From assembly GCA_947500295.1 (NCBI GenBank), contig CANMRM010000006.1, positions 248,001-312,000 on the forward strand: a stretch of DNA of 64,000 bases. The letters run 5' to 3'. A program made the translations under genes and the position numbers. Source of the stretch: an uncultured Kordiimonas sp. (lineage in GTDB: Bacteria; Pseudomonadota; Alphaproteobacteria; Sphingomonadales; Kordiimonadaceae). Numbering within the stretch: position 1 is the stretch's first letter; every line of letters begins with the position of its first letter. Below, one piece after another: positions 1-57,574 of this stretch. The notes under the pieces were generated by a model. It was not told where the DNA came from. It did not search any database and saw nothing but the letters and a program-made list of their open reading frames with translations.

Positions 1-342
1 GCGCTGCATCTGGGTCTCATAGTCCTGCTGCGTCCGCAGTGCGAGCTTGGTCCAGGCCTTATTGTCTTTGCTTTTGAACTTGGCAAAAAGCCATTTCACA
101 GAGCCTTCTTCGTCCTGCACCTCAACACCATTGCGCCAGTCGTTAAACTGGTTCAGCAACTTCTTATGTTTGGTGAAGGCGTCGCCAAAGTCAGTACCGA
201 GCGGCTGGCTGGTCTCAATTGGGCAGGGTCTGCCGTTAACCAATCGCTTTGAATAGCGACCGTGAACTTCGAAATAATAGCCTGTTTTTCCGCCAGCAAG
301 CGGCTTTGCCTTCATATATGTCGGCAGCTGTATTTTGGGCAT
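1..342 (-). CDS. int: Phage tyrosine integrase, N-terminal part (runs off left edge)
   Basis: Only the first 114 codons are in the window. Translation starts at the ATG at 342 on the minus strand (MPKIQLPTYM...). The visible part contains a short beta-rich arm-binding-like segment (GGKTGYYFEV) and the start of a core-binding domain (WLFAKFKSKD...RTQQDYETQMQR). This resembles the N-termini of alphaproteobacterial phage integrases. The catalytic R-H-R-Y domain lies outside the window, so the call rests on the N-terminus, on position at the element end and on the excisionase-like gene 9 bp upstream. It is distinct from the second integrase at 55814. Confidence 0.75.
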   Translation of the reverse strand, partial: MPKIQLPTYMKAKPLAGGKTGYYFEVHGRYSKRLVNGRPCPIETSQPLGTDFGDAFTKHKKLLNQFNDWRNGVEVQDEEGSVKWLFAKFKSKDNKAWTKLALRTQQDYETQMQR

Positions 343-3839: not shown

Positions 3840-6115
3840 TCCTTGTCACCCCTCTCATTATCCAACCGAAACGCGGTCTGATCATTGTCTACCGAGAGCG
3901 CAAGCGCAGCTGGCTTTGCCCAGATTTCTTTCGGACTCAGGAAGAAGGATTCGCCCATATCTGCCAGCATGATGGTCTCGCCAATGGTCTCAGCGATGCC
4001 TGTGGCTGCGGCGCCGGGGACCATGTTTCCAATCCATTCGCGCTTGGTTACATCGCTGGATGCATCAAGGTCGAAGTGCTCGCGGCACCGCCACACCTCT
4101 CCATGTTCGGTTTCTTCTTTGAAAAAGACTTCTTCTGGCTCAAACAGGCTTTGCAGCGCCGCCAGGTCGAGGGTCGTGAATGGGCGGTGCCAAGTGCCAT
4201 CTGTTGCGATGATGCGGCATACAAGCCTTTCATTTGGCTTTGGCATGCTCAATTCAGATACGTCCAAGTCTGCGTCTCGCGGGTCGGCAACAGAATTGAA
4301 GCCATTGTCATGACACGCCGAACCGCTGACGGCATATGCAGATTGTTCCCAATCGACCACGCCGTAATGTCCGCCTGTCTGATAATTCTTGCGTTTATCC
4401 GCCACGCAGGCTTGCCCACCGGTCACACTGTGTGCATTGGCCGCTATGGTGCCCACTGCCTCATCAAAGGGTGTGACGCGCAAGATGTTGCTGTGGCGTT
4501 GGTTGCCCCAGTTGGGTCGCGGATCAGCAACCGCAAAGGCGCCGTCGCCAGTTGTGCTGGCACCTATCACTGCTCGGCTGCAATTGTCGTACGGTGTCAC
4601 TTTGTACTTTGTCGTTGTGTAGTCCTTCTTGCTTGACGGACGCGGATCTGCAACTGCTACTCCGCCCGCGGGTCCACCCGGACCGGCAACGGCTGGTGCA
4701 GTGCCGTCAAAGGGAACAATCTTGAATACATTGTTGAACCGTGGTTTGCCCTCAATCCGAATGTCAGCGATTGAATGGGCGCCGCCACCTGGTGCGGATT
4801 GGCCAGAAACTGTGCCAATATGCTCGTGCCATTTGTTCACGCCATATTGCTGATAGGTCTGGTTGGCTTGTTCCTTTGGGCGAGGATCAGCGACAGAGAA
4901 GGCGCCATTGGTTGGGCCATTTTTCGCTTGGATGGTGCCGCTCGGCTGTTCCCACTCTTTAACGCCAAGCGTGCTGTCCCGGTCCCTATCACCATAACGA
5001 ACATCTGCGACGCTATGCGCCCCATTATGAGGGCGACTGGCACCGGCGACCACTCGCGCAGCATCGTCCCATCCACGAACACCCAAAACATCATTATGCC
5101 AGCCATCTTGTGGCCGCGGGTCTGCGACTGAAAACCTGCCTTGTCCTGGTGCGCGGTGCGACGTGATGACTGGTGCTGTGTCGTCCCAATCATTTACACC
5201 AAGCGCATTGTCGCGTAGCGGGATTTCCGGAACGATACCGAAGTCACGCAAATTGCCATCGACAACGGCTAGGTCATTCAGAGCACGCCAGTCTTTGCCA
5301 GCTGGCACCAGTGCCAGCCGCAACCATGTTTTCCATTGCAGAGAGGGAACGCGGTGCATGCTGCCGGCAATCGGGTCGCCGGGCAGGGGCAGCTTGCCAA
5401 TTACTTCGCCAACTCCGCGCAACCTGTGCTCTCGCGGCTGGTAGATGAATGGCGGAATAGACTCGATATGTCTACCTATCAGCAACGCCCGTTTGCGGCT
5501 TTGAGCAAGATTGCCAATGATGCCGCAATCGTGGGTGTCGAGGTTTACGCTGTAGCCGTAGGAGCGCAGTAGCGCCATGATCTGATCAAGCAACCACTTG
5601 CCGCGTGTTAGGATCCTGGGGACGTTCTCAAACAAGATCACCGGAATCGGATTATCTTTGTAGGCTTCCAGTGCAAGCCAAACACCGCGCAAGGTCAGTC
5701 TGTTCAGTGCCTGGTACTTATCCGTTTTCGATTTCTTCGACGACAGCAGGCCTGAGAAGCCTTTGCAGGGGGCTGAAAGGAACATGACATCAACCTGCGG
5801 GCCAAAGGCCTTGCGGATGTCATCCGGTGTAGCTTCCTTCCAGTCTCTGTCGGGCGCTTCGCCATGAAATTCAATGAACTGCTGGCGGTCAAACAGGTCC
5901 ATGACCGTGCCTCTTACGCCTGCAATGCGTTCAAAGTTGCGGATGGCGCCGACATCTGAGTCGATGCCGCCCACACAGACAAACTTTGCCTGCATATTGG
6001 CGACCCGCGGCGAGGCGCGGTTAAAGCCTCGTGCGCCACCACCAAGGCCACAAAACAGGTGGGCATGCCGGATTTTGCGAGTTTTTGTTATTGGCGCGAC
6101 GTGCATAAGCTTCAC
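3836..6115 (-). CDS. DNA (cytosine-5) methyltransferase with eight internal repeats
   Basis: 759 aa. Motif I is LFCGLGGGARGF (20-31), motif IV is APCKGFSG with catalytic Cys117, motif VI is ENVPR (163-167), and motif X is GNMVP (about 696-700). Between the motif VIII-like region and motif X lies an unusual block (about residues 302-615) of eight repeats of about 39 residues. Each has a GVxxW(D/E) core and ends in a VADxR signature. It therefore acts as a 5-methylcytosine methyltransferase on DNA, probably protecting phage DNA. The repeats occupy the place of a target-recognition domain. A GTG at 6115 overlaps the upstream stop, and an ATG at 6106 is the alternative start. Confidence 0.85.
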   Translation of the reverse strand: MKLMHVAPITKTRKIRHAHLFCGLGGGARGFNRASPRVANMQAKFVCVGGIDSDVGAIRNFERIAGVRGTVMDLFDRQQFIEFHGEAPDRDWKEATPDDIRKAFGPQVDVMFLSAPCKGFSGLLSSKKSKTDKYQALNRLTLRGVWLALEAYKDNPIPVILFENVPRILTRGKWLLDQIMALLRSYGYSVNLDTHDCGIIGNLAQSRKRALLIGRHIESIPPFIYQPREHRLRGVGEVIGKLPLPGDPIAGSMHRVPSLQWKTWLRLALVPAGKDWRALNDLAVVDGNLRDFGIVPEIPLRDNALGVNDWDDTAPVITSHRAPGQGRFSVADPRPQDGWHNDVLGVRGWDDAARVVAGASRPHNGAHSVADVRYGDRDRDSTLGVKEWEQPSGTIQAKNGPTNGAFSVADPRPKEQANQTYQQYGVNKWHEHIGTVSGQSAPGGGAHSIADIRIEGKPRFNNVFKIVPFDGTAPAVAGPGGPAGGVAVADPRPSSKKDYTTTKYKVTPYDNCSRAVIGASTTGDGAFAVADPRPNWGNQRHSNILRVTPFDEAVGTIAANAHSVTGGQACVADKRKNYQTGGHYGVVDWEQSAYAVSGSACHDNGFNSVADPRDADLDVSELSMPKPNERLVCRIIATDGTWHRPFTTLDLAALQSLFEPEEVFFKEETEHGEVWRCREHFDLDASSDVTKREWIGNMVPGAAATGIAETIGETIMLADMGESFFLSPKEIWAKPAALALSVDNDQTAFRLDNERGDKE

Positions 6116-6510
6116 ATTCCGTATTCGTCGACGCCGCTGCCGAGCAGGCGAGCGAGACCTATGATCTTCGTGCGAATGCGGGGGTCCGCGATGCGGTAAT
6201 AGGCGTCCACCAGTTCGCGGGTTTCTTCTCGCTCCATTGCGTTTTCGGATACGGCTTCTTGCTGCTGATACCCAGGCAATTTTGTTTCGGCACCCTCAAA
6301 GAAGTAAGCAATTGGCACATCGAGAGTACTACTCACCTTGAACAATCGGCTGCTGCCAATACGGTTGGTGCCGCGTTCATACTTCTGAACTTGCTGAAAG
6401 GTCACCCCGAGCTCATCGCCCAGTTGAGTTTGCGACAACCCAAGCATTTTGCGGCGAGCGCGGACACGCTGCCCAACATGGATGTCGATGGGGTCTGGTC
6501 CTTTGGTCAT
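6112..6510 (-). CDS. XRE-family transcriptional regulator
   Basis: 132 aa. A classic HTH_3 domain occupies residues 11-65 (VRARRKMLGLSQTQLGDELGVTFQQVQKYERG). A C-terminal tail ends in RIADPRIRTKIIGLARLL, typical of alphaproteobacterial XRE proteins of this length. It lies directly upstream of the methyltransferase with a 4-bp overlap and probably controls it or the leftward operon, much as controller proteins accompany methyltransferases. It is separate from the main phage repressor at 14070. Confidence 0.8.
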   Translation of the reverse strand: MTKGPDPIDIHVGQRVRARRKMLGLSQTQLGDELGVTFQQVQKYERGTNRIGSSRLFKVSSTLDVPIAYFFEGAETKLPGYQQQEAVSENAMEREETRELVDAYYRIADPRIRTKIIGLARLLGSGVDEYGM

Positions 6511-8817: not shown

Positions 8818-9819
8818 CTACTGTTCGTAGTCGCTCACGTCCACAGAGGCATCAGCTTCGCCGATCTCCTTTGCGCGCCGGTTGTAGGCGCCACGAAGCA
8901 GCAGCTGATCCTTCTGATCGAAATTTGAGATGGCTGGTGCCTGGGTGGCAAAAACGCGGTGTAATGCACCAATGGACACCACAGACTCGACGAGTTTCAG
9001 CTGGCGGTCCATATCATCAAACACCTCAGAGTCCTGCATGGGCTCTGCACCTATCCAGTCCTGCCAAAAGTGGCTAAAGTCATGATCAGCATCGTTCGAG
9101 GTTTGTGCATCGTCTTCGACGATCTCGGCATCAACTGCCGTGGGCTGATCAATTGCAGGTTCGGGCTCACTGCCAGCATCAGCAAATGCATTAAGCTTAT
9201 CTGCAACGCCTTGAGGTTCCTGCTCAAAAACGCCGTTGGCATTTGGTGTGACATCAATCACATCATGCAGTTCTTCAGCGGTATGCAGGCCCATGCTGAT
9301 TTCAGGGGCAGTGGTCCTAATAAAGAATGCAGCAGCCCGGAAACGAAGCATATGTTCGGGCATGGTCTGCCACTTGCTTCCCTTCTTGTTGAACCACCCT
9401 TCGGCCTTCGCCATGGCTATTGAAACCCAAGGGCCTTCAAGCTTATCTCCAGTTTCTTTCTCTCGTGCTACTGCGCGACAGGACCACGCATCTGTGTTTT
9501 CCTTACCTCTCAATTCGTAACGCAAAGGACCGTAGTCTGGACTTTGATTGAAGGTCGCGATCAGGAACTGACTGGACCAACCCGGCTTGCCGTGAACAAT
9601 GTAAAGGTTCTGCGCAACCATCAATGGGTCGGCACCCAATCGGTCTGCCATATTGATGACAATTATGCAGTCAGCCTTCTTGCCCCGGAAATGTTCGGGC
9701 ACAATGCTGGATTGTGAGAGCGCTGTGGCTCGCCGCTGGACTAGAGCAAAGTCTTGTTCACCCTTAGTTGGCACGGCCAAATTCGCGATGTCCTGTTTTT
9801 TTGCTACCGCCGTGTTCAT
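8818..9819 (-). CDS. recT: RecT-family single-strand annealing protein
   Basis: 333 aa. The RecT core is clear: MADRLGADPLMVAQNLYIVHGKPGWSSQFL and later GPWVSIAMAKAEGWFNKKGSKW and MLRFRAAAFFIRTTAPEISMGL. The C-terminal third is acidic and less conserved. RecT proteins bind ssDNA and anneal complementary strands in phage recombination. The upstream YqaJ-type exonuclease overlaps it by 4 bp. Together they form a RecE/RecT-like two-gene recombination module. Confidence 0.9.
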   Translation of the reverse strand: MNTAVAKKQDIANLAVPTKGEQDFALVQRRATALSQSSIVPEHFRGKKADCIIVINMADRLGADPLMVAQNLYIVHGKPGWSSQFLIATFNQSPDYGPLRYELRGKENTDAWSCRAVAREKETGDKLEGPWVSIAMAKAEGWFNKKGSKWQTMPEHMLRFRAAAFFIRTTAPEISMGLHTAEELHDVIDVTPNANGVFEQEPQGVADKLNAFADAGSEPEPAIDQPTAVDAEIVEDDAQTSNDADHDFSHFWQDWIGAEPMQDSEVFDDMDRQLKLVESVVSIGALHRVFATQAPAISNFDQKDQLLLRGAYNRRAKEIGEADASVDVSDYEQ

Positions 9820-10718
9820 GCTGCTTTCGCTTCCTTGTTTTTCACCGCAGTCACACGGAAATTGCGAAAGGCCTTCTTGGTGTGAGCCTCCACATGCGCT
9901 TCTTTGGTGGTTGTTGCACTTATGGTGAAACCGTCCAGTTTGACCTTTTTGGCGTCACCGATGATGGTGAGGATTTCAGCCTTTTTGGCTGCTTTGAGCG
10001 CTTTGGCAGCTTTTTCCTCGTCCGCAGCCTGCTTGTAGTCATGCACAAGAGAGGTCAGCAGATTGTTGCCGGTCATGTCGATTTCGGCATCGCTCGCATC
10101 GCGGTACAAGACCGCTATAGAACTTGCATCCAGCGTGAAGTCAGGCTCAGGTGCCCGGTTCTCTCGGATGGATGCCCAGAACTGCTCAACCTCGCTCTCA
10201 AAGCGCTTAATCGCACCCGGATTGGCAGCCACTTCCATGTAATAAAGCTTGTTGCCACCCACACATGCGACCAGATAGCCCCGGTCTTTACCCGCGCATG
10301 CCATCTGTGCCTGTAGCTGCAGGATGATGTGCATGGGCGCATCAGTGATGATGTCACCATCTGCTTCCCACTTGTCGCGGAAAATGAGGCCGTCAACGTT
10401 TTTGATTTCGACTGGCAGGTGGCCGGTCACTGTCTCATAATCGAGGCTGGTGCCGAACTGCGAAACCGTCGGGTGTTCCATGTAACGATGGACACGACGC
10501 ACGGCGATACCAGTTTCAGTTTTGAACCAGTCTGCAATTGCAGGCTCAAGGTGGTTACCTGCCCGAACACGCTCATTGTCCAGATCAGGCTCGGGCAGGG
10601 TGCCCTTCTTTCTATGCCAAAGATCAAACTTTGACATGTAAGGCGAGAGACCAAACAGCGCAGCGATTTCACTGCCGCCTATCCAGTTCTTGCGTTCGTC
10701 TTTGGTGATGTTGGTCAA
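9816..10718 (-). CDS. YqaJ-type viral recombinase (alkaline exonuclease)
   Basis: 300 aa from a TTG at 10718 preceded by GAAGGAAAG. The open frame extends upstream to 11108 but there runs antiphase through two other genes, so that part is not coding. Motifs are RKNWIGGSEIAALFG, SKFDLWHRKKG, GNHLEPAIADWF, then GTSLDYETVTGHLPVEIKN (PD-(D/E)XK metal ligands) and HIILQLQAQMACAG. It digests one strand of duplex ends to load the annealing protein RecT, whose gene follows directly. Confidence 0.85.
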   Translation of the reverse strand: MTNITKDERKNWIGGSEIAALFGLSPYMSKFDLWHRKKGTLPEPDLDNERVRAGNHLEPAIADWFKTETGIAVRRVHRYMEHPTVSQFGTSLDYETVTGHLPVEIKNVDGLIFRDKWEADGDIITDAPMHIILQLQAQMACAGKDRGYLVACVGGNKLYYMEVAANPGAIKRFESEVEQFWASIRENRAPEPDFTLDASSIAVLYRDASDAEIDMTGNNLLTSLVHDYKQAADEEKAAKALKAAKKAEILTIIGDAKKVKLDGFTISATTTKEAHVEAHTKKAFRNFRVTAVKNKEAKAA

Positions 10719-10729
10719 CAGTCTTTCCT

Positions 10730-10879
10730 TCAGTTTAGGGGCAATCCGGCAGCCACGAAGATGATGGCCAGCAGCATGTAGCTGGCGTAGAAGAACAGGA
10801 GGCCAAAGACCGCGGTTCCCAACATTTTCACGGCACCAAACGGCCCCATGCGCTTTAGTTCTCTGACAACAGGGTTCAT
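10730..10879 (-). CDS. 49-aa single-span membrane protein
   Basis: A short gene: MNPVVRELKRMGPFGAVKML followed by one hydrophobic helix (about residues 21-44, rich in Leu, Phe, Ala and Ile) and a short tail. The start overlaps the upstream stop by ATGA and the stop lies 11 bp before the exonuclease start, an operon-like fit on both sides. A basic N-terminus before the helix predicts an N-in orientation. Function unknown. A superinfection or membrane-signalling role would be speculation. Confidence 0.6.
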   Translation of the reverse strand: MNPVVRELKRMGPFGAVKMLGTAVFGLLFFYASYMLLAIIFVAAGLPLN

Positions 10880-11358: not shown

Positions 11359-11367
11359 TATTCAAAA

Positions 11368-11414
11368 AACTACGGAGTTCCATAGTTGCCATGAGGTGCG
11401 CGCTGTGGTGCTAT
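11368..11414 (+). promoter_or_regulatory. Lux-box-like dyad and promoter of luxR1
   Basis: AACTACGGAGTTCCATAGTT (11368-11387) is a 20-bp dyad with 8 of 10 symmetric pairs. Its last two bases form the start of a -35 TTGCCA (11386-11391), followed after 17 bp by TGCTAT (11409-11414). A LuxR-type box overlapping the -35 is the classic AHL-activated promoter layout. The ATG of luxR1 is 73 bp beyond the dyad. It matches the dyad at 13945 at 15 of 20 positions with identical geometry. It lies 10 bp from the leftward operators. Confidence 0.65.
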
Positions 11415-11460
11415 TCAGCAACTACCAGTTGAAGCGAAAACCGAAGGTGAGGGCCACGAT

Positions 11461-12201
11461 ATGCTTTTGGAAAGTTTACAACGAGATCTCGATAAAACGA
11501 CGGATGCGCTAGAGTTGCACGGGATTTTTTCATCATTTCTGGCGGTCTTTAATGCGGTTTACTTTACGAGCTTTACCTTTGGCCGCATGGTTGAAGGCAA
11601 GCGACACCTAAAGCCCATGAACCCTTACGGCTGCTTTGATCATCCATGGCCCCTGCATTACACGAGGCGAAATTTTTTGTACAAGGATGCGGCACTCTTA
11701 AAGGCTGTAGCCCATTCGAATTGGGAATTGCCCGTATTATGGAGTGAGGTAGACTGGCCGGATGACAGTAAAGTCATTTTGGCGGAGGCAGCCCATATGG
11801 GTTTAGACGAGGGAGCGGTTTTCCCGATCACCAATGCGGATGGTTCAATTACAATTTTCAGTGTCGCGGGCGCGAGGTTCAAGCCAAGCCAGCAAGACCT
11901 AGCTGTCATGGCCGCGGGAGCGAAGCGCATGCATATCCGGGTTATGGAAGTAGAGGGCAACCTTGCTTTGTTGGGCGCCGGGGATCTGCCCACGGATCAT
12001 GTGCGGGTGCTGCAGTTGATGGCCCAGGGTATGAGCAATGCCAGCATTGCAGAGGTTATCAGCAATGAAGACGGCAACCCGATCACGCCGGACGGGATCA
12101 AAAAACGGGTAGCAAAAATTTACGAGACGACGGGCGCTGTTAATCGTGATGACGCGGTGTTTCTTGGCTTGCGTCACTCACTGATAACGTTGCGCGGCTA
12201 G
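11461..12201 (+). CDS. LuxR-type AHL-responsive regulator 1
   Basis: 246 aa. The N-terminal autoinducer-binding domain keeps the ligand-contact residues with TraR-like spacing: Trp63, Tyr67, Asp76 and Trp94 (DHPWPLHYTRR...YKDAAL...VLWSEVDW). The C-terminal GerE-type HTH (about 176-240) is divergent, with an insertion SNEDGNPITP between helices but a retained NRDDAV end. It would bind an AHL in the cytoplasm and activate or repress lux-box promoters. It is the first gene of a luxR-luxI-luxR run, with a lux-box-like promoter upstream, implying autoregulation. Confidence 0.85.
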   Translation: MLLESLQRDLDKTTDALELHGIFSSFLAVFNAVYFTSFTFGRMVEGKRHLKPMNPYGCFDHPWPLHYTRRNFLYKDAALLKAVAHSNWELPVLWSEVDWPDDSKVILAEAAHMGLDEGAVFPITNADGSITIFSVAGARFKPSQQDLAVMAAGAKRMHIRVMEVEGNLALLGAGDLPTDHVRVLQLMAQGMSNASIAEVISNEDGNPITPDGIKKRVAKIYETTGAVNRDDAVFLGLRHSLITLRG

Positions 12202-12270
12202 CCAGTACCCGGGCGGGTAGTTCACAAGTGCAATTTGGTGTGTATGGTTTCCCGGGAAGGGAGCCATCAC

Positions 12271-13125
12271 ATGATTTACCTCATCGATCATCGCAACCGC
12301 CACTTGTTCGGCAAGTACCTTATGCAAATACATCGCCAGCGCTATGAGTACTTTGTTCAAGCCCGCGGTTGGTTCGAATTGGAGAGCTTTTTCCACATTG
12401 AAGTGGACCAGTATGATGGTCCAACGGCAAGCTATATTGCAGTCATCGATGAGGGCAGGGTGATAGCTTCCATTCGGGTGATGCCTACTAGCTTGGGCAC
12501 GTTCCTTGAGGAAAGTCACAAAGGCAGAATCCTCCCAGAATATCGCCCATATCCTTTTTGCCAAGAGACTTGGGAAATGTTCCGGCTGTTAGTCACAGAC
12601 GACAAATGGCGCTGGGAAGGGCACCCAGCTGTTCGCGTGCTCATGATCGGTATGTACGAATACTTGCTGGGGCAGGGTGCTAAGCGCTTGGTTGCAGTTT
12701 CCGACACCGGGCTTTTGCGCAAAATGCCACCGGAATGGCCCTTCAGGGAGATCGGTGCCCGAGAAAAGTTTTTGCAGAGGGACCTACCGGATGGCGAGAG
12801 TACTCTTGTGGAGATAGAGTTGCACGAACAGGTCAACGAGCTCACCAGACGAAATCGACAGTATCGCGCTGGGCAACTTCAACGAGCCGAAGACGCACTG
12901 GCACCAGCCAAAATCGGGTACTCTCCCGAGGAACTATTTGTGATCAACCGCTGGTTAGTGCATCATCCTGAAAGAATCCATGAGGTGCGCGGCATCGTGA
13001 AGACGGCTGAAAACAAGTTGGATGGTTATGACAAATTTAACGAGTTAGTGACAGAGTGCATTGCATGGGATTGGGGGTCGAACGAAGGCAGAAGTAGCGT
13101 CCAAGGGATACCCGTTTGGCATTAG
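12271..13125 (+). CDS. LuxI-type acyl-homoserine-lactone synthase, C-terminally extended
   Basis: 284 aa from the ATG at 12271, which has GGGAAGGGAG upstream. A TTG at 12235 is rejected. The invariant LuxI residues are all present: Arg24, Phe28, Trp34, Asp46, Asp49, Arg69, Glu102 and Arg105. The enzyme makes AHL signals from S-adenosylmethionine and acyl-ACP. Typical synthases are 190-230 aa. Here about 90 extra residues (from HEQVNELTRRNRQYRAG onward) form an unrecognised C-terminal domain. It sits between two luxR genes on the phage. Confidence 0.8.
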   Translation: MIYLIDHRNRHLFGKYLMQIHRQRYEYFVQARGWFELESFFHIEVDQYDGPTASYIAVIDEGRVIASIRVMPTSLGTFLEESHKGRILPEYRPYPFCQETWEMFRLLVTDDKWRWEGHPAVRVLMIGMYEYLLGQGAKRLVAVSDTGLLRKMPPEWPFREIGAREKFLQRDLPDGESTLVEIELHEQVNELTRRNRQYRAGQLQRAEDALAPAKIGYSPEELFVINRWLVHHPERIHEVRGIVKTAENKLDGYDKFNELVTECIAWDWGSNEGRSSVQGIPVWH

Positions 13126-13922
13126 TTGACTGGCAGCAAGCAGAAGAAAAATTAGATAGAGTATCAGAGCCCGGTTTTGCCGCCCGCATCGCTTTTGATG
13201 CCGCCACACAGCTGGGCTTCACTTCCATGTTTCTTGGGGAAATCCCGGTGGGGACCGAGCGCATGGAAAAGCAAATGCTGTTCACGTTGCCGGGTGACAA
13301 ATGGCCGCTACATTACTCGCGTCGCGGTTTTCGACACGTGGACCCAATAATACTACTGTTAAAATCCTTCGAATTTGAGATCGTCTATTGGGATGATTGC
13401 CGCGCAATGATCCGAGCCAACACGCACGCCCAGCAAATGTACCAGGAAGCGGCGCAAATATTTGGCCTGGAAGACGGTATGATAGTTTGGACACTTACAC
13501 CGAACATTACACTCGGTTATCACTATATGGCCGGGCCAAAAGGTAGTGCGGTGGGCTTATCGCGGACGGACAGGCTGGAAATGGCGCGCTGTGCCCGCGT
13601 TGCGATTATGAAGGAAGCCAAGCACTCAGAGGTTTACGAGGTTTTGCCCCATGCGCCGGCGCTGACTCAAAAACAGCGCGAGATCCTTTCGATGGTCATG
13701 GAATGTCACAAAAACCAAGAAATAGCAGATCACTTCAATGTCACGCGCATTGCAGTTGAAAAGCAGATAACCGCCTTGTTTGAAGCCTTTAAAATTCCAA
13801 ATGACGTTGGAGTGAAAAGAATTGCGCTCGTACAAGCGGCCCAGCGCTGCGGGCTGGTGCCAATTGAGCCGGTGTTAACAAAACATTCGCAAAACCCCAA
13901 AAGCAAAGACGTACCTAATTAA
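13116..13922 (+). CDS. LuxR-type AHL-responsive regulator 2
   Basis: 268 aa from a TTG at 13116 with AAGGGA upstream, overlapping the luxI stop by 10 bp. The ligand-binding domain keeps Trp63, Tyr67, Asp76 and Trp92 (DKWPLHYSRRGFRHVDP...YWDD). The HTH is about 200-245 (LTQKQREILSMVMECHKNQE, EIADHFNVTRIAVEKQ). The last 25 residues are a basic tail. With two receptors and one synthase, the proteins may respond to the same signal with different effects. The next promoter downstream carries a lux-box-like site. Confidence 0.85.
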   Translation: MALVDWQQAEEKLDRVSEPGFAARIAFDAATQLGFTSMFLGEIPVGTERMEKQMLFTLPGDKWPLHYSRRGFRHVDPIILLLKSFEFEIVYWDDCRAMIRANTHAQQMYQEAAQIFGLEDGMIVWTLTPNITLGYHYMAGPKGSAVGLSRTDRLEMARCARVAIMKEAKHSEVYEVLPHAPALTQKQREILSMVMECHKNQEIADHFNVTRIAVEKQITALFEAFKIPNDVGVKRIALVQAAQRCGLVPIEPVLTKHSQNPKSKDVPN

Positions 13923-13944
13923 TAAAATTGTCAAATTGGCAAAA

Positions 13945-13996
13945 AAGTATGGATGTCTATAGTTGAGAAGCCACCACTAAACCCTTACGATATAAT
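13945..13996 (+). promoter_or_regulatory. Second lux-box-like promoter, pointing at the repressor gene
   Basis: AAGTATGGATGTCTATAGTT (13945-13964) matches the dyad at 11368 at 15 of 20 positions, or 20 of 25 with flanking A-run and G. It overlaps -35 TTGAGA (13963-13968), and 17 bp later comes TACGAT (13986-13991). A TATAAT at 13991-13996 is an alternative -10. Box and -35 overlap by two bases exactly as upstream of luxR1. Transcription would run through the 71-aa ORF at 14018 and antisense to the repressor. No intrinsic terminator intervenes. Confidence 0.65.
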
Positions 13997-14017
13997 TTGA
14001 TTGTGGGGTACACGTTT

Positions 14018-14233
14018 ATGGCGAATAATTCAGCAATAGTTAGCCATGTAAAGAAGGTTCGGGTTGATACTAGAGCAAGTTGCTTGGAATTGTCAGAGCC
14101 TGAACGACGCCCACTATGCAAAAACTGTGTTTTTGCTCGCCTGAGCCCACCTCACCGATGTGCCAGTCTTGTTGAGGATAATAGGGAAGGGCAGCCGTTC
14201 GGTTATCTTTATGATCGGTTGGCGTCACAATAA
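14018..14233 (+). CDS. Candidate small antirepressor ORF opposite the repressor gene
   Basis: 71 aa from the ATG at 14018 (GGGG about 10 bp upstream). It contains CKNCVF and a later Cys (PPHRC), a possible metal site, and no recognised domain. Its last 164 bp overlap the 3' end of the repressor on the other strand, so the frame could be fortuitous. Position is the main argument: it is the first ORF behind a lux-box-like promoter and next to the repressor, where known quorum-sensing phages encode small antirepressors. Even if untranslated, the transcript is antisense to the repressor mRNA. Confidence 0.35.
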   Translation: MANNSAIVSHVKKVRVDTRASCLELSEPERRPLCKNCVFARLSPPHRCASLVEDNREGQPFGYLYDRLASQ

Positions 14234-14594
14234 TCTGGTCGCCGATGACACCAAACCGAAACAGGCTTGGAGCTTCTTCATCTTTCTGCCCAACAATCAG
14301 CAAGTCTATCGCCGGTCTGCCAGTTTCCTTGTAACCTTCGGCTGAAATAATTTCGGCCACAATGCCGTTGTTGAGGTCCAGTCTGCCAGGAACCTCTGAC
14401 TTTTTGCCTTGCAGGAGATACTCGGTAGATGTCTTCAAGGCTTCAGCGTATTCCACGATAAACCTAGGTTTTGCAGTCCTATCGGCTTCCAGCAACCATA
14501 CAGCGGACTGACTTACACCGACCAACTTGGCAAGTTGCTCTTGCGTTAGTCCGAGTTCTTCTCGGCGTGCCCTTGCCCGTGCCCCTAACGACAT
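14070..14594 (-). CDS. Phage repressor (CI-like)
   Basis: 174 aa. The XRE-type HTH spans residues 5-60 (ARREELGLTQEQLAKLVGVSQSAVWLLEADR). The C-terminal region (DWHIGEVGSGEQKHSFCIVG) resembles that of the repressor at 59903. I do not see the Ser/Lys peptidase motifs or an Ala-Gly/Cys-Gly cleavage site of an S24 repressor, so SOS self-cleavage is doubtful. It is divergent from the Cro-like gene across three operator-like dyads and convergent with the lux-controlled transcript. It is the probable keeper of lysogeny. Confidence 0.8.
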   Translation of the reverse strand: MSLGARARARREELGLTQEQLAKLVGVSQSAVWLLEADRTAKPRFIVEYAEALKTSTEYLLQGKKSEVPGRLDLNNGIVAEIISAEGYKETGRPAIDLLIVGQKDEEAPSLFRFGVIGDQIIVTPTDHKDNRTAALPYYPQQDWHIGEVGSGEQKHSFCIVGVVQALTIPSNLL

Positions 14595-14618
14595 CCAACA
14601 ATCCCCTTTGACTGCTGT

Positions 14619-14686
14619 CTACAACAAAACTTGTAGCGGAGCACCACAACAATACTAGTTGTGATTACAAGAAAACTTGTTATTAT
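14619..14686 (+). promoter_or_regulatory. Repressor operators and rightward early promoter
   Basis: Three dyads lie in the repressor-cro interval: CTACAA-N6-TTGTAG (14619-14636), CACAAC-N7-GTTGTG (14645-14663) and ACAAG-AAAA-CTTGT (14667-14680). A rightward promoter has -35 TTGTGA (14659-14664) and -10 TATTAT (14681-14686), 16 bp apart, with the third dyad filling the spacer, just as at the leftward promoter. Repressor and Cro would compete here. Assignment to these proteins is inference from position. Confidence 0.7.
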
Positions 14687-14708
14687 TCGCACTGGAAAGG
14701 ATCACTCC

Positions 14709-14987
14709 ATGTTGAACATCGAAGAAATCAAAAAAATAAAGCGAGCGGGGATGGATTTGGCAGTTGGCCGCGCTGGTTCCCAATCTGCCTTGGCGGAGGG
14801 TGTTTCAAATTCAAAATACGCAAAGTCCCTTCAACTCTCCTGTTCTCAGGCGGCGATCAGCCTCATGCAAACCAAAGGCGAATGCAGCGCAAAATATGTG
14901 CTGGCAGTCGAGGAATTTACCGGTGTTTCACGAGGGCAGCTGCGGCCAGATTTGTATCCAGAAGACCCCGTGGCGCGCTGCGCGTAG
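14709..14987 (+). CDS. Cro/YdaS-like small regulator
   Basis: 92 aa from the ATG at 14709, preceded by AAAGGA. A short HTH region (LSCSQAAISLMQTKGECSAK) is followed by YVLAVEEFTGVSRGQLRPDL, the YdaS/Cro-like C-terminal pattern. Divergent from the repressor across shared operators, it is the expected Cro counterpart that favours lytic growth and is the first gene of the rightward early transcript. Confidence 0.7.
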   Translation: MLNIEEIKKIKRAGMDLAVGRAGSQSALAEGVSNSKYAKSLQLSCSQAAISLMQTKGECSAKYVLAVEEFTGVSRGQLRPDLYPEDPVARCA

Positions 14988-28213: not shown

Positions 28214-28537
28214 ATGGCAGTCACAGTCCACATTGAATGGTCGAAGTTTTTCACCAAGACAGGCGCTGAGGTACTGGACGCCAAGCCATTGGATGAGGAA
28301 GACAGTTCCTTTGAGCGCCTTACAGTGACAGTTGATGACGATGTGCAGTCAACACCAGCGCCTGATGGGGCTACTGTTGCGATCGTTACCGCGAGAAATG
28401 GCGACATCGTGACACGCATCGACAAGGCCATTGGCAGCAACCTACTTGGTCGCCTGTGCATGGATGGCGGACCTCGCATCATTCCCGTCAAGGCAAACCA
28501 GCGTCTGACAATGAGGGCGGTTGCCGATTATGGCTAG
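28214..28537 (+). CDS. Small phage protein upstream of terminase
   Basis: 107 aa. Beta-rich (VTVHIEWSKFFTKTGAEVLD, RLTVTVDDDVQSTPAPDGAT). No motif. Its stop overlaps the start of the small terminase gene. Could be a minor virion component. Not recognised. Confidence 0.4.
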   Translation: MAVTVHIEWSKFFTKTGAEVLDAKPLDEEDSSFERLTVTVDDDVQSTPAPDGATVAIVTARNGDIVTRIDKAIGSNLLGRLCMDGGPRIIPVKANQRLTMRAVADYG

Positions 28538-29090
28538 TGGCCAGGCCAATAAGAAGACCGCGCCTAAAAAGACGGCAGGCAAGAATTCGACTGCGAAGAA
28601 GCCAGCGGCAAGGAAGGCCACTAAGCGCGCCCCCGGGAAGACAGCCAAGGAAACGAGGGATGCCAAGCGCATCGCCAACCAAAAAAGGCTATTCTTGGAG
28701 TGCGTTGCCGAGGGGCACACTGTGAAAACCGCGGCGAAAGCGATCAATGTTTCAAGAACCTGTGTCTACAATTGGAGGGACGAAGACAAGAAGTTCTCGC
28801 AAGGTTGGGACGACGCAATTCTTGATGGCGATGATGAGTTTGAGGAAGAAGCGCGCCGCAGGGCGATCAAGGGTGTAAAAGAACCAATAGTCAGCGGCGG
28901 TATGATCATCGGCGAGAAGCTCAAGTTCAGCGACACCTTACTGATGTTCCTGATGAAAGCCCGTAGACCCGATCTTTACAACCCAACGCAAAAGGTGGAC
29001 CTCTCTGGCAACCTGGCGCTGGCTGACATGACTGATGAACAACTGAATGCGATCATCAAAGACTTTATGGAAACATTGAAGCCTGAGTGA
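28530..29090 (+). CDS. Terminase small subunit
   Basis: 186 aa. The first 55 residues are a Lys/Ala-rich basic tail (KKTAPKKTAGKNSTAKKPAA...). An HTH follows (ECVAEGHTVKTAAKAINVSR, then TCVYNWR), and the family signature FEEEARRRAIKGVKEPIV with LKFSDTLLMFLMKARRPDLY. It recognises the packaging site and delivers DNA to the large subunit encoded next. The extended basic N-terminal tail is longer than usual. Confidence 0.85.
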   Translation: MASGQANKKTAPKKTAGKNSTAKKPAARKATKRAPGKTAKETRDAKRIANQKRLFLECVAEGHTVKTAAKAINVSRTCVYNWRDEDKKFSQGWDDAILDGDDEFEEEARRRAIKGVKEPIVSGGMIIGEKLKFSDTLLMFLMKARRPDLYNPTQKVDLSGNLALADMTDEQLNAIIKDFMETLKPE

Positions 29091-29872
29091 TGGAAAGTGC
29101 TGTTGTTGAGCAGCTGCCGAGGGCGCAGCGTGAGAAGCTGTTCAAGGCTTTGCAGGAAAGGCTTAACCGGCGCCGATGCCGCAAGCTGTTTCACATCTAC
29201 CCGGATGAAACACACAGCGTTGATTATGGCGCTGGCGACGTGCGGCAGTATCACGCACGCAGCTTGTATCCGAAGCACATGGAATTCTTCGAAGCGGGTG
29301 CCAAGTACCGAGAGCGCTGCGCGTTGGCTGCTAACCGGATTGGTAAGACGTTTGGAATGGGCGGCTATGAAATCGCCTGTCATCTTATCGGCTGGTATCC
29401 AGATTGGTGGATTGGTCGTCGATTCAGCAGGCCGGTGCGTGCGTGGGTTGCAGGAAAAAATGGTGAAACCACCCGTGACATCTTGCAGAAGGAGCTCCTT
29501 GGAGAAGTGCAGGATGGCACCAGAAAAACTGTGTCTGGTGACGGCATAATTCCGGGCGAAAAAGTGGATCAAAAGAGTATGACGTGGAAAAGCGGCGTGC
29601 CCAATCTGATCGACACAGTGAAAATCAAACACAGTTCGGGCGGCAAGTCTGTTCTGGGTTTTAAATCCTACCATCAGGGCAGGGGAAGTTTCGAGGGAAC
29701 AGCTCAGGACGTGATCTGGCTGGACGAAGAATGCCCCGCAGACGTTTACGGAGAATGCATCATCAGGACCGCGACCACCAACGGCATTGTCATGCTGACA
29801 TTCACACCGCTGGAAGGGCTGACCGACGTTGTATTGATGTTCTTGCCGCAAATGAGTTTGGACGCAGACTAA
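29090..29872 (+). CDS. Terminase large subunit, ATPase half
   Basis: 260 aa. Walker A-like ALAANRIGKT (about 79-87), Walker B VIWLDEE (208-214) and the coupling motif TFTP (237-240) identify the packaging ATPase. The frame is closed by a single in-frame TAA at 29870-29872. The next codon is ATG and the nuclease half continues in the same frame. Together the two halves give about 509 residues, normal for a whole large terminase. Either the gene has split, or the stop is read through, or ribosomes re-initiate. Confidence 0.9.
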   Translation: MESAVVEQLPRAQREKLFKALQERLNRRRCRKLFHIYPDETHSVDYGAGDVRQYHARSLYPKHMEFFEAGAKYRERCALAANRIGKTFGMGGYEIACHLIGWYPDWWIGRRFSRPVRAWVAGKNGETTRDILQKELLGEVQDGTRKTVSGDGIIPGEKVDQKSMTWKSGVPNLIDTVKIKHSSGGKSVLGFKSYHQGRGSFEGTAQDVIWLDEECPADVYGECIIRTATTNGIVMLTFTPLEGLTDVVLMFLPQMSLDAD

Positions 29873-30619
29873 ATGCCTGCTGTTACGGAAAGCCGTTATC
29901 TCGTTCAGGCTGGATGGGATGATGTGCCACATCTGGACGAAAAGACTAAGCGCGAATTGCTTGACGCGACACTGCCTTATTTGCGTGATGCCCGCTCCAA
30001 AGGCACGCCAAGTTTGGGCTCAGGCGCGATCTATCCGATACCAGAGAGCGAATTTGTCGTGGATCCATTTGCCATTCCGCCATTCTGGCCAAAGGCATTC
30101 GGGTTCGATGTTGGATGGAAGCGCACAGCCTGTATTTGGGGTGCCCTCGATCGCAACGTGGATGTTCTTTACCTGTTTGCAGAGCATTACCGCGGCGAAG
30201 CACCACCAAGCACGCACGCCACGGCGGTTAAAGCTCGCGGAGAATGGATTCCAGGCGTAATTGACCCCGCGGCTCGCGGCAGGTCACAGCGTGATGGTGA
30301 ACAGCTGATGTACGACTACAAGTCGCTCGGCTTGGATCTTGTTCCAGCAGACAACAGCGTAGAGAGTGGCCTGTACAATGTTTACGAGCGACTGAATTCT
30401 GGTCGGCTCAAGGTTTTCAGCACTTGCCGCAACTGGCTGGCTGAATTCCGTCTCTACCGGCGCGACGAAAAAGGCCGGATTGTCAAAGAAAACGATCACT
30501 TGATGGACGCAACTCGCTACCTCGTTAAGAGCGGTGTGAAGCGCGCCATAGTGGAACCAGTAGCCTCCATGGATTTCCATCCGGGGGCAAACGTTGGGGA
30601 TGCAGATGCCGGGTACTAA
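29873..30619 (+). CDS. Terminase large subunit, nuclease half
   Basis: 248 aa in the same frame as, and immediately after, the ATPase half (TAA-ATG). RNase H-like acidic residues are visible in FGFDVGWKR (Asp79), VIDPAARGRSQRDG (Asp131) and DHLMDATRYLV near the C-terminus. It makes the cuts that start and end headful packaging. The beginning (YLVQAGWDDVPHLDEKTKRE) corresponds to the inter-domain linker of intact homologues, so no domain is lost. Confidence 0.88.
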   Translation: MPAVTESRYLVQAGWDDVPHLDEKTKRELLDATLPYLRDARSKGTPSLGSGAIYPIPESEFVVDPFAIPPFWPKAFGFDVGWKRTACIWGALDRNVDVLYLFAEHYRGEAPPSTHATAVKARGEWIPGVIDPAARGRSQRDGEQLMYDYKSLGLDLVPADNSVESGLYNVYERLNSGRLKVFSTCRNWLAEFRLYRRDEKGRIVKENDHLMDATRYLVKSGVKRAIVEPVASMDFHPGANVGDADAGY

Positions 30620-32795
30620 GCAAAATCAAATTGCAAGCATTGATGAAATTGAAGCCGAGGATGCGGCCTTCAATGAGAAGCAGCGCATTGCAGAAGTCGT
30701 AAAGGGCATTGCAAGTCGCCTCGAGGCTCAGGCCACGGAAATCGTGGGCAAAAAGCGTGATGTTGAGGACATCTGGTATGAGAACACGCGCCAGTATTTT
30801 GGTCGATACGATGAGACGACAGAGGCCAACCTAAAAACAAGTAAAACGTCGCGCCTCTTTGTGCATATGACGCGGCCAAAGACTGACCTATGGGTTGCCC
30901 GTCTGTTCGATCTGCTGTTTCCGACAGACGAGAAGAATTGGGGCATCATGCCGACGCCAGTACCTGAAATTCAGGCAGCAATTGACACTGAACCGAAGGT
31001 CAACGCAGGAGACGATGTTTCCGAAGACCAAGCCATGGACATGAATAAGGCAGCTGCTGGCCGTGACCATGTTGATACTGCGGCAAAAGCAGCGACTGCT
31101 ATGCAGCGTGAGATGGAAGATCAGCTTGTCCAGAGCAAGTACGCCGCTGAGTGCCGAGATGTGATTGAAAACATGTGCCGCCTGGGAACAGGCATTCTCA
31201 AAGGGCCAATTGATGGCGGAGCGGCCAACAAACGCTGGGCGCTGGTTGGTAGTATTTACCAACTGAAATCATATCAGGACTCATCGCCTCATTACGTTTC
31301 TGTTGACCCATGGAATTTCTTTCCAGACCCAAATGCCACGCGGATGGACGATGCAGAATTTACGTATGAGCGCCACTTGTGGACGAAGAAGAAGTTGAAA
31401 GGACAAGCCGCCAGGCTTGGTTTTGACATGGCGGCTGTAAACGAACTGTTGAAGGAGGGACCAAACACCCCAATACCTGATTTCATTTCCAATATCCGAG
31501 CCATCACACATCAGAACAAGAGCAGCATCGAAAACCGGTTTGTCATCTGGGAATATCGTGGCCCGATAGAAACCAATGAACTGCGTGATTTGCTGCTCCA
31601 TTCAGGCGATGAAGCAGGCCTTGAGGCCATGAAAGATGATCTGGATGAATTGTTTGAGATCGAAGTGGTCGTTTATGTGTGCCAAGGAAAAGTTCTGAAA
31701 TTCGGAATTCATCCGCTAGATCGCGGCGATACGCTTTATAGCGCGGTAAGCTTTGCCAAGGATAACACATCGATCTGGGGTTATGGCGTGCCAGCACTGA
31801 TGTCTGACAGCCAAAAAGCCCTCAACGCAGCTTGGCGCATGATGATGGACAATGGCGGCTTGTCTGCTGGTCCGCAGGTGCTGATCAATAAGAAGGTGGT
31901 CGAGCCGGTCGACGGCGACTGGACACTGAGAGCTCGCAAGGTCTGGCGCATCAAAGATGATTCACCAAATGGTGCTGAGCCATTCGCTATTTTCAATGTG
32001 GATAGCAATCAAGCTGAGCTCGGCAACATCATTAACTTGAGCCGTGAGTTCATTGATGATGAGGTTAGTTTGCCGGCGCCTACGCAGGGTGAAACCGCGG
32101 GTGCTCAGGTAGGCAATACTGTTGGTGGTCTGGCAATGATCATGAACAGCAGCAACATCATATTCAGGCGGGTCGTGCGCAACTTCGACGATGACCTGAC
32201 GGTCCCATCACTGCACCGCCTTTATGACTGGAATATGCAGTTTAGTGACAAGGATGAGATCAAAGGCGACATGCAAGTGGAGGCGCGTGGCTCGTCTGTG
32301 TTGCTTACTCGCGAACTGCAGGCACAGAACATTATGGCGCTGCTGCAAACATCCGCCGCCGACCCTGAATTTGCTGCCTGGGTCAAAAAGGATGAGGCGC
32401 TTAAGAGCTTCATTGAATCTCTCATGCTTTCCAGCAAGAAGCTGCTTCGCACAGAGGAAGAAATGAAACAATTCCTTGCTGAAAACCAGCCGACTGAGGC
32501 CGAGGGACAACAGGTTAGCCCAGAAGAAATCAAGTTTGCGATCGTACAGTTTGAAGCAGAATCCAGAGAGCGTGTTGAGGCCATGCGGCAGGAGACCGAG
32601 CTTATCAAGCTGGCTGAAGCGCATGAAATGAAGTTGGAGGAACTCCAAGCCAAGCTGCAAATTCAGCGCGATAAACAAGACAGCGACGAACGCAAGATGT
32701 CAGCCGAAGCTGGTTTCAAGATGAGAATGGCTCAACGCGAGGCTGCGGGAACCGCAGTTGAGGTGGGCGGCACAAGTTTTGGTGCTGCGATTTAG
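30606..32795 (+). CDS. Portal protein (podovirus type)
   Basis: 729 aa from the ATG at 30606 (GGGG 8 bp upstream). The N-terminus is acidic, then LFVHMTRPKTDLWVARLFDL, DPWNFFPDPNATRMDDAEF and GVPALMSDSQKALNAAWRMM follow, a layout seen in large P22/N4-like portals. The C-terminal 200 residues are a charged coiled coil (EAHEMKLEELQAKLQIQRDK). It forms the dodecameric ring at the capsid vertex through which terminase packages DNA. It overlaps the terminase stop. Confidence 0.85.
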   Translation: MPGTKQNQIASIDEIEAEDAAFNEKQRIAEVVKGIASRLEAQATEIVGKKRDVEDIWYENTRQYFGRYDETTEANLKTSKTSRLFVHMTRPKTDLWVARLFDLLFPTDEKNWGIMPTPVPEIQAAIDTEPKVNAGDDVSEDQAMDMNKAAAGRDHVDTAAKAATAMQREMEDQLVQSKYAAECRDVIENMCRLGTGILKGPIDGGAANKRWALVGSIYQLKSYQDSSPHYVSVDPWNFFPDPNATRMDDAEFTYERHLWTKKKLKGQAARLGFDMAAVNELLKEGPNTPIPDFISNIRAITHQNKSSIENRFVIWEYRGPIETNELRDLLLHSGDEAGLEAMKDDLDELFEIEVVVYVCQGKVLKFGIHPLDRGDTLYSAVSFAKDNTSIWGYGVPALMSDSQKALNAAWRMMMDNGGLSAGPQVLINKKVVEPVDGDWTLRARKVWRIKDDSPNGAEPFAIFNVDSNQAELGNIINLSREFIDDEVSLPAPTQGETAGAQVGNTVGGLAMIMNSSNIIFRRVVRNFDDDLTVPSLHRLYDWNMQFSDKDEIKGDMQVEARGSSVLLTRELQAQNIMALLQTSAADPEFAAWVKKDEALKSFIESLMLSSKKLLRTEEEMKQFLAENQPTEAEGQQVSPEEIKFAIVQFEAESRERVEAMRQETELIKLAEAHEMKLEELQAKLQIQRDKQDSDERKMSAEAGFKMRMAQREAAGTAVEVGGTSFGAAI

Positions 32796-32799
32796 CGCC

Positions 32800-33027
32800 A
32801 TGAAAATCCATAAGGACGGTGCGACTTGGCAGGTCATTGCCAAGCATATTGCAAATCGCCGGAAAAAGCTTCTGGCGGAGTTGCAGAGCGTCAACCTCAA
32901 ACATGAAGAAACTCAAGTTCTGCGGGGTCGTCTCGCCGAACTTAGCGAGCTCGAAGGACTGGCGTCCGAAGACCTCGACCAAACGCCTGCTTCCCATTCG
33001 GGGGAGACTTACGGGCTTTCTGACTGA
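32800..33027 (+). CDS. Small head-region protein
   Basis: 75 aa from the ATG at 32800. A coiled-coil-like helix (ANRRKKLLAELQSVNLKHEE) with a DGATWQ N-terminus. Located between portal and scaffold, like small head-completion or scaffold-accessory proteins. No family recognised. Confidence 0.45.
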   Translation: MKIHKDGATWQVIAKHIANRRKKLLAELQSVNLKHEETQVLRGRLAELSELEGLASEDLDQTPASHSGETYGLSD

Positions 33028-33059
33028 ACCGCCTTCGGGCCGTTAAAGGACTTAGATTG

Positions 33060-34166: not shown

Positions 34167-34175
34167 AGGATAATC

Positions 34176-55495: not shown

Positions 55496-55553
55496 CGGCG
55501 ACCTCTCGTTTCGAAAGATCGCCGCTAAATCACTGTAATTAGTGAAGAATTCT

Positions 55554-55627
55554 TGGAGGCGCGAACGAGAATCGAACTCGTGTACACGGATTTGCAATCC
55601 GCTGCGTAGCCACTCCGCCATCGCGCC
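55554..55627 (-). tRNA. tRNA-Cys (GCA), with encoded CCA; attachment-site candidate
   Basis: The minus strand gives a 7-bp acceptor stem GGCGCGA/TCGCGCC, discriminator T, and encoded CCA at 55556-55554. The anticodon stem-loop is CGGATTGCAAATCCG with anticodon GCA. The T-arm CGAGTTCGATTCTCG is intact. The left prophage lies on the 3' side, the usual geometry for insertion at a tRNA 3' end with regeneration of the gene. A second integrase gene starts on the 5' side. Confidence 0.95.
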
Positions 55628-55691
55628 TCATGTGGCAAAATGCTTTAATTTTCAATCATTTATGTAGACCGAAATCAAAGCTGATAAAGTG

Positions 55692-57226: not shown

Positions 57227-57574
57227 TCATTTGGACTGGTTCTGCATGTCCCACAATAATTCAGCAACGGATGCGAGGTGTGAAACCTGATTTTCCGGTA
57301 AAGTATCAAGAATAATACTCACAACTGCCGCAAAATGGTCACGGTGCTTTTTGTCACCGATATCTTTAATAAAAATGCTGGGGCACACCCTGAGTTTTTC
57401 GCCAATCTGGATAAGGCGGGTAGGGGTAATCGGCGCTTGGCCGCGTTCAATCTTGCCGGTTTGCTGGGCCGTAATGCCCATGTGCTTGCCAAGCTCCGCG
57501 CGGCTGATGCCTGCGGACCGGCGAACGGTCATAATGCGCTGGCCGATTTCTCGGTCTACATCAATAATAGTCAT
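57227..57574 (-). CDS. XRE-family regulator of the second element
   Basis: 115 aa from the ATG at 57574 (GGGAAGG upstream; a TTG at 57589 is possible). HTH residues about 8-60 (IMTVRRSAGISRAELGKHMG, then ITAQQTGKIERGQAPITPTR), then a helical tail. It is divergent from the LuxR gene. Small dyads in the 151-bp interval (ACAC-N9-GTGT near 57596, TTGA-N8-TCAA near 57613) could be its operators. Confidence 0.75.
   Translation of the reverse strand: MTIIDVDREIGQRIMTVRRSAGISRAELGKHMGITAQQTGKIERGQAPITPTRLIQIGEKLRVCPSIFIKDIGDKKHRDHFAAVVSIILDTLPENQVSHLASVAELLWDMQNQSK

Follow-up and report, generated by a model that had tools for sequence, protein, structure and literature searches.

A luxR-luxI-luxR cassette beside the repressor gene of a Kordiimonas prophage, and a second, apparently unrelated lux-bearing element in the same tRNA-Cys gene

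We analysed a stretch of 64,000 nucleotides from an uncultured Kordiimonas sp. (contig CANMRM010000006.1, here C6, positions 248001-312000; draft genome of 4.27 Mb in 13 contigs). This stretch is referred to as the window, and negative coordinates or coordinates above 64000 lie outside it in the same numbering. The window contains most of prophage A, a 56.6 kb element integrated in a tRNA-Cys gene and bounded by a 53-bp direct repeat, at -1076 and 55548, that includes the 3' half of the tRNA. Between its leftward recombination genes and a pair formed by an XRE repressor gene and a YdaS-like gene lies the operon luxR1-luxI-luxR2 (11461-13922, plus strand). A second luxR-luxI pair (57663-59473), missing from an earlier note on this DNA, belongs to a different mobile element, element B. 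The earlier note had placed the cassette between the leftward early region and the repressor/Cro-position switch of a prophage, and the gene order, the 53-bp repeat, the phage genes and the empty sites described below agree with this placement. The coordinates of all features are collected in Table 1.

The cassette is compact: the gap between luxR1 and luxI is 69 bp, the TTG start of luxR2 lies inside the end of luxI, and 148 bp separate the end of luxR2 from the convergent repressor gene. The Pfam matches exceed the curated cut-offs for Autoind_synth in LuxI-A (38.9 bits, cut-off 24), for Autoind_bind in luxR1 and luxR2 (40.1 and 37.8 bits, cut-off 23) and for GerE in luxR2 (26 bits, cut-off 23.5); the same scan gave no GerE match in luxR1. 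In the alignment, LuxI-A retains R24, F28, W34, D46, D49, R69, E102 and R105, which we take to be the conserved catalytic and binding residues of the family, so all eight LuxI positions named in the earlier note for this putative acyl-homoserine lactone (AHL) synthase are present. Likewise, the claim of two LuxRs with Trp-Tyr-Asp-Trp pockets is borne out by alignment to RhlR, with the caveat that the last Trp of luxR2 is one column off. The helix-turn-helix (HTH) of luxR1 carries a 6-residue insert that is absent from the 24 other LuxRs (25 aligned in all), and LuxI-A has His83 where most aligned relatives, read by eye, have an aromatic residue. The C-terminal extension of LuxI-A (12700-13125) is also present in at least 13 chromosomal LuxIs of the host genus. 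A single-sequence structure prediction of LuxI-A was unusable (mean predicted local distance difference test score, pLDDT, 42.3), and Rfam gave 0 matches at the gathering threshold in 10500-15200.

If the synthase or the receptors were defunct, the cassette would be a degenerating one and its long branches a sign of decay. The branches are indeed long (LuxI-A, 1.81; luxR1, 1.98; luxR2, 2.72), and the inserts in the C-terminal parts of both LuxRs, together with His83 in LuxI, point the same way. However, the three frames are open over their full length in an overlapping operon, and the eight synthase positions and both ligand pockets are kept. Decay is thus quite improbable.

Two related dyads, box 1 and box 2, lie on both sides of the cassette. 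The earlier note called them two near-identical lux-box-like promoters; the flanking pair of related dyads stands, whereas "near-identical" is too strong, because the boxes share only 15 of 20 positions. When a 25-mer around box 1 was compared with both strands of the window, the best match was box 2 (20/25, the next best being 16), and a second place so good was found for 0 of 500 composition-matched 25-mers and for 13 of 1500 random ones. The promoter-like site that overlaps box 2 was the top one of 12 sites found, with a 10/12 match to the consensus, a ranking by consensus match alone. No terminator-like site was found in 13922-14070. A frame downstream of box 2, 14021-14233, was considered as a small antirepressor gene and rejected, its score of -0.119 bits/codon being equal to the median of 148 antisense frames.

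Element B is bounded by a second repeat, conserved at 45 of 47 bp, at 55589 and 76580, and thus spans 21.0 kb starting in the same tRNA-Cys. A small open reading frame (ORF) lies between luxR-B and luxI-B, and the latter matches Autoind_synth with 88.2 bits (curated cut-off 24). Beyond the window (L014), the element encodes a replication-initiator-like protein (Rep_trans, 19.4 bits, below the cut-off of 29.6), an FtsK-like packaging ATPase (FtsK_SpoIIIE, 27.1 bits, cut-off 24), assigned in PHROGs to a terminase-like packaging protein, and a coat-protein-like protein. Compared to the coat protein P2 of corticovirus PM2, the latter scored 29.1 bits for P2_C and 19.8 bits for P2_N (cut-off 25 each); it fell into no PHROG family, and a profile search of PDB sequences returned none at E 0.1. 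No tail gene was recognised among the scanned proteins, a subset of those of element B. By these matches, and with reserve, we describe element B as corticovirus-like and unrelated to phage A; it is probably tailless. Relatives of its capsid protein were found in 5 of 147 genomes and, at the level of the class, in 2 of 385 (the own genome included in both counts; the other class-level match is marginal, E 9e-4); two named contigs matched, one of them the G015 contig again, and IMG/VR gave 0 matches. Two relatives of the element, one in G015 (L069) and one in a Kordiimonadaceae metagenome-assembled genome (L099), carry an integrase, an HTH gene and a repressor, with no lux match between integrase and repressor; therefore, the luxR-luxI pair looks inserted in element B. 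No lux match was seen in L070-L072, where the repressor side was partly covered.

The repressors of the two elements, A and B, are homologous over their full length (24% identity, E 2e-8). Repressor B is also similar to the L099 repressor (30%, E 1e-17), which repressor A matches in a short C-terminal stretch (E 3e-5). The S24 domain, typical of SOS-cleavable repressors, gave no match in repressor A, repressor B or the L099 repressor, whereas the L069 repressor does match it (38.6 bits). SOS autocleavage of repressors A and B is thus not evident from their domains, and because neither of these homologous proteins shows an S24 match, a non-SOS input is plausible. As a marker, repressor A matches in 12 of 147 genomes, outside its own genome in the HTH part only, and repressor B in 2 of 396 genomes, its own included.

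Table 1. Features of prophage A and element B in the window
Feature	Position	Strand	Remarks
luxR1	11461..12201	+	246 aa; intact ligand domain; divergent HTH with 6-residue insert; without GerE match
luxI-A	12271..13125	+	284 aa; LuxI-type synthase with C-terminal extension
luxR2	13116..13922	+	268 aa; ligand domain and GerE HTH; TTG start overlapping luxI end
Box 1, lux-box-like dyad AACTACGGAGTTCCATAGTT	11368..11387		centre 83.5 bp before luxR1 start
Box 2 AAGTATGGATGTCTATAGTT	13945..13964		between luxR2 and convergent repressor gene
Promoter-like TTGGCA-16-TATAGT	13936..13963	+	second hexamer inside box 2; would run antisense into repressor gene
TATAAT, alternative -10 of a candidate LuxR-activated antisense promoter	13991..13996	+	39 bp past box 2 centre; putative function
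Repressor A	14070..14594	-	174 aa; HTH_31/HTH_3; homologous to repressor B
YdaS-like gene, Cro position	14673..14987	+	start codon uncertain; faces repressor A gene
attL of element B	55589..55635		45/47 bp repeated at 76580-76626 (outside window); in tRNA-Cys 5' half
Element B integrase	55814..56842	-	phrog_1, 4.9e-35
Element B XRE protein	57227..57589	-	divergent from luxR-B
luxR-B	57726..58448	+	240 aa; TTG start
luxI-B	58841..59473	+	210 aa; closest solved synthase LasI
Repressor B	59903..60511	-	202 aa; HTH
attR of prophage A	55548..55600		53-bp repeat, other copy at -1076; in tRNA-Cys 3' half
Phage A integrase gene, 5' part	1..342	-	gene runs on to -869 outside window; domain match in outside part
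XRE protein (HTH_3), leftward operon	6112..6510	-	related to XRE genes adjoining chromosomal luxI in two relatives
RecT-like and RecE-like genes, leftward early operon	8818..10736	-	
Phage A terminase small subunit, two-piece terminase large subunit, portal/head-tail adaptor, major head protein	28521..35171	+	

LuxI matches were found in 46 of the 147 genomes searched, the own genome included. LuxI-A forms a clade of five with the LuxIs of G006, G013, G020 and G027 (support 99/97), on a long branch. The closest solved synthases are RpaI and BjaI for LuxI-A and LasI for LuxI-B; the RpaI/BjaI type is presumably the acyl-CoA group. The existence of an acyl-CoA-using group of synthases is described in the available part of PMC10470506. 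LuxI-A and LuxI-B share 26% identity over 130 positions and, belonging to different subtypes, are likely to make different signals. In the tree, luxR-B branches as sister to the second of two luxR genes in a G008 locus (L045, 7705-11053; support 100/97), where luxR, luxI, luxR and XRE genes follow each other on one strand; adenylation-type and asparagine-synthase-like genes lie next to them, as judged by eye. By gene order, this locus is the nearest chromosomal counterpart of the cassette. The own genome carries a third luxR-luxI pair at C4, and further LuxR genes. A perfect palindrome, CCTGATTGTTCAACAATCAGG, lies between the two C4 genes (L073, 13390-13410) and is likely to be the host lux box; at up to 3 mismatches it has no occurrence in the window. 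Elsewhere on C4 (309-311 kb; L074, 8949-11506), three LuxR-type genes stand in a row, with no adjoining luxI found.

The search with the phage A portal matched 3 of 147 genomes, including the own genome. The prophage region of G019 has no lux match, and the LuxI of G019 lies ~230 kb away on the same contig; the contig of G022 ends within the repressor gene, leaving its lux side unseen. In IMG/VR, there are 61 capsid relatives, mostly fragments, of which 11 short ones were dropped and 50 searched; the LuxR ligand domain, the only lux domain used in this search, was found in 0 of 50. The idea of a module conserved in related prophages, for which the earlier note had proposed a gene-order search, thus finds no support among these mostly fragmentary records. 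Since no such cassette was seen in the phage relatives that were examined and LuxI-A groups with chromosomal LuxIs from the host genus and family, the cassette of phage A looks acquired from lux loci of chromosomal type. Close relatives of LuxI-A were absent from INPHARED at E 0.01 and, by peptide patterns that detect close relatives only, from IMG/VR and from 84,980 genomes. A search with alignment A2 returned two IMG/VR loci with luxR-luxI pairs (L096, L097), which may lie in phage or in host flanks. LuxI matches in INPHARED included those in Acinetobacter phage MD-2021a (L091), where the stretch resembles bacterial DNA by its annotation, and in Pseudomonas phage Y5 (L094, unannotated). It should be noted that a luxR-luxI pair of G017 (L036, 9001-10820) lies directly beside tRNA-Cys at the orthologous site. 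As a source of the cassette it was rejected and its position taken as coincidence, LuxI-A not grouping with the G017 copy; a pair of this type had no match at the site in any of 15 other relatives, three of which have one flank cut to 10-706 bases.

With somewhat better than even confidence, we favour the reading that a temperate podovirus took up a full AHL circuit resembling those on chromosomes of the host genus and made it a density input to its own repressor switch. The link to the choice between lysis and lysogeny is one that we infer. LuxI-A would make a homoserine lactone (HSL) in lysogens, perhaps from an acyl-CoA substrate. A LuxR-HSL complex, containing LuxR2 alone or together with luxR1, would bind box 1 and turn on the operon, i.e., autoinduction; at box 2, the complex would alter transcription that enters the repressor gene from its 3' end, and hence the repressor level. 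The position of box 2 in the short stretch that separates luxR2 from the repressor gene, the absence of a terminator-like site there and the intact residues were counted in favour. The lux genes of element B would play the same part in that unrelated prophage, whose repressor is homologous and whose signal would be of another type.

The sign of the predicted control deserves separate consideration. We prefer the one in which HSL raises the repressor level and favours lysogeny, because only lysogens would make the signal, because the strongest promoter-like site has its -10 hexamer inside box 2, where bound LuxR would occlude it, and because both proven phage LuxI circuits work in this way. The opposite sign, with an antisense transcript activated and lysis at high signal, is nearly as likely. 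In its full form, LuxR-HSL would activate a rightward promoter at box 2 that runs antisense into the repressor gene, and high signal would induce the phage, as in VP882 and ARM81ld but with a self-made signal. The perfect TATAAT past box 2 fits such a promoter, although in classical LuxR promoters the distance between box and -10 is shorter than here, which counts against it. Transcription would meet no terminator-like site in the gap, and according to the available text of PMC9894119 the LuxR of ARM81ld, with an XRE partner, activates a counter-oriented small gene that starts lysis. On the other hand, the small ORF downstream of box 2 shows no coding signal, and a signal made by lysogens only is a poor cue for lysis. 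We regard such a lysis switch as possible but rather unlikely.

Several points weigh against a role of the cassette in the phage switch. The luxR1 protein may bind DNA abnormally. Box 1 is ordinary as a dyad, since the window has 48 comparable ones. When up to 3 mismatches were allowed across the genome, the box pattern gave 5 rows compared to 12 for the reversed control (both strands counted), a weak check of uniqueness; this pattern was built from the two sites themselves. The L099 element has the same type of repressor without lux genes; therefore, the repressor can do without them. The cassette runs towards the repressor gene and stands outside the repressor operon, unlike in Phaeobacter. 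By codon score, luxR1, luxI and luxR2 (0.04-0.07 bits/codon) rank below the repressor and YdaS-like genes, as recent cargo would. HSL production, box function and the direction of control in phage A are all predictions from sequence. Finally, the minus strand of box 1 can form a weak hairpin followed by a T run, similar to a terminator (-8.6 kcal/mol, z -3.2).

The last point suggests that the boxes could be transcription terminators rather than LuxR operators. Both have A6 on their left, equivalent to a T run after a minus-strand hairpin, and box 1 was listed as terminator-like; however, the minus strand of box 2 does not fold (0 kcal/mol), and yet box 2 is the one that follows the repressor gene. 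We consider the terminator explanation improbable. A different possibility is lysogenic conversion cargo (a moron), in which the cassette alters host behaviour or host quorum sensing with no role in the phage switch. Its absence from the 50 phage-related records searched, its apparent derivation from chromosomal-type loci, its codon scores below those of the switch genes, its convergence with the repressor gene, and the fact that the host owns a C4 luxR-luxI pair with a different, perfect palindrome before luxI would all fit. Conversely, the cassette lies directly against the repressor gene with a box in the gap facing it, the unrelated element B, in the same tRNA gene, likewise keeps a luxR-luxI pair next to its repressor, there is precedent for lux circuits of phages that influence lysogeny, and the window has no copy of the C4 box at up to 3 mismatches. 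Taken together, cargo is unlikely, and we retain the density input to the repressor switch as the preferred reading.

A broader picture can be proposed tentatively, at rather less than even confidence: two prophages with different virion genes, one a tailed podovirus and the other tailless and corticovirus-like, occupy a single tRNA-Cys, and each would feed an HSL circuit into a homologous non-SOS repressor. Given their different synthase subtypes, they could count their lysogens separately while acting on each other and on the third circuit of the host, a chemical dialogue between unrelated viruses in one cell. If the circuits work, these neighbouring prophages, whose LuxI types differ and whose repressors are related, would offer a natural test of insulation versus manipulation between the lysis-lysogeny decisions of co-resident viruses. 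Close relatives without the cassette (L069 and L099 for element B, many records for phage A) provide natural controls.

As for the rest of prophage A, it is a temperate podovirus integrated in tRNA-Cys with recognisable attachment (att) sites. Its integrase matches Phage_integrase with 44.1 bits, and its portal is closest to podovirus-type portals, namely those of Pseudoalteromonas vB_Pun_Y3, HMO-2011 and Roseobacter CRP phages, all below 60% identity. In G018 and G003 the site is empty: the Lrp-type regulator, tRNA-Cys and phosphoglycerate-mutase-like gene are grouped there with no prophage among them. Two adjacent ORFs, 29087-29872 and 29873-30619 (TAA, then directly ATG), encode the terminase large subunit. 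It is also divided in G019, G022, G398, G400, G401, G402 and G410, with spacing from none to ~3 kb; therefore, the split is a trait of the phage group rather than a recent break. A phage protein of 2598 aa (46338-54134) matches large phage proteins, including phrog_616 (function unknown), over its first 1221 residues.

Turning to known systems, the earlier note described known quorum-sensing phages as listening to host signals. As a claim of novelty for self-made signals this is not supported: the available text of PMC6456758 (2019) already notes a phage LuxI adjoining LuxR and draws the analogy to arbitrium, and that of PMC13345283 (bioRxiv, July 2026) reports that AHLs made by prophages drive lysogeny. 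In the latter, two unrelated prophages of Phaeobacter inhibens produce HSLs through xre-luxR-luxI modules and favour their own lysogeny; such modules occur in 53 of 93 Roseobacter prophages and were confined to the Roseobacter clade in that screen. Self-made prophage signalling is thus already known, and phage A and element B widen the idea rather than found it. What is new here is the second, unrelated lux-bearing element at the same tRNA-Cys, and the layout with two luxR genes and a convergent XRE gene. The accessible text of PMC13345283 contains no occurrence of "cortico-", "PM2", "tailless" or "two luxR", that of PMC9966536 mentions neither luxR nor luxI, and the literature searched on corticovirus and quorum sensing yielded no report of luxI in a corticovirus-like element.

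Like the modules of P. inhibens T5 and other Roseobacter, as far as the accessible text of PMC13345283 describes them, the prophage luxR and luxI genes in Kordiimonas adjoin an XRE/HTH switch. The T5 genome, similarly, has two unrelated prophages with such modules and a separate host luxR-luxI, in an alphaproteobacterial host. The architecture differs. In Roseobacter, the xre-luxR-luxI operon is co-directional and faces hth, with no other recognisable cI/Cro-type pair, whereas in phage A luxR-luxI-luxR is convergent with the repressor gene and an HTH repressor faces a YdaS-like gene; in element B, the XRE gene is divergent from luxR-luxI. In addition, one of the elements here is corticovirus-like, both sit in one tRNA gene, and the host belongs to Kordiimonadaceae. 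ARM81ld (PMC6456758 and PMC9894119, in their accessible parts) resembles phage A in having a phage LuxR, an XRE protein in the phage and a proposed link to lysis and lysogeny. Unlike phage A, it lacks LuxI and listens to a host signal, and its effector is a counter-oriented small ORF, whereas the candidate in phage A, 14021-14233 (the only site searched), is without coding signal. Another LuxI-type synthase gene in a phage genome is gp55 of Roseobacter phage RDJL Phi 2 (INPHARED, annotated as AHL synthetase); unlike the phage A gene, it lies beside a terminase gene, with no LuxR annotated among the nine features shown. The chromosomal luxR-luxI(-luxR-xre) loci of the host genus in G008 (L045), G013 (L037) and G017 (L036) also encode a long LuxI with a C-terminal extension, and L045 shares the luxR-luxI-luxR order followed by XRE, with no phage genes seen around it by eye; the chromosomal LuxIs of the genus are 17-26% identical to LuxI-A (alignment A1). 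Element B may resemble corticovirus PM2 in its capsid (P2_C above and P2_N below the cut-off), its FtsK-like ATPase and a weak replication initiator match; unlike PM2, it is integrated and carries luxR-luxI. The circuits may work like arbitrium, in that a signal made by the prophage would report lysogen density, with the difference that arbitrium (AimR/AimP) uses a peptide, its receptor and an RNA, and the elements described here would use HSL chemistry with LuxI and LuxR proteins. If they do work, prophage HSL signalling would reach beyond the xre-luxR-luxI operon, the Roseobacter clade and the tailed phages.

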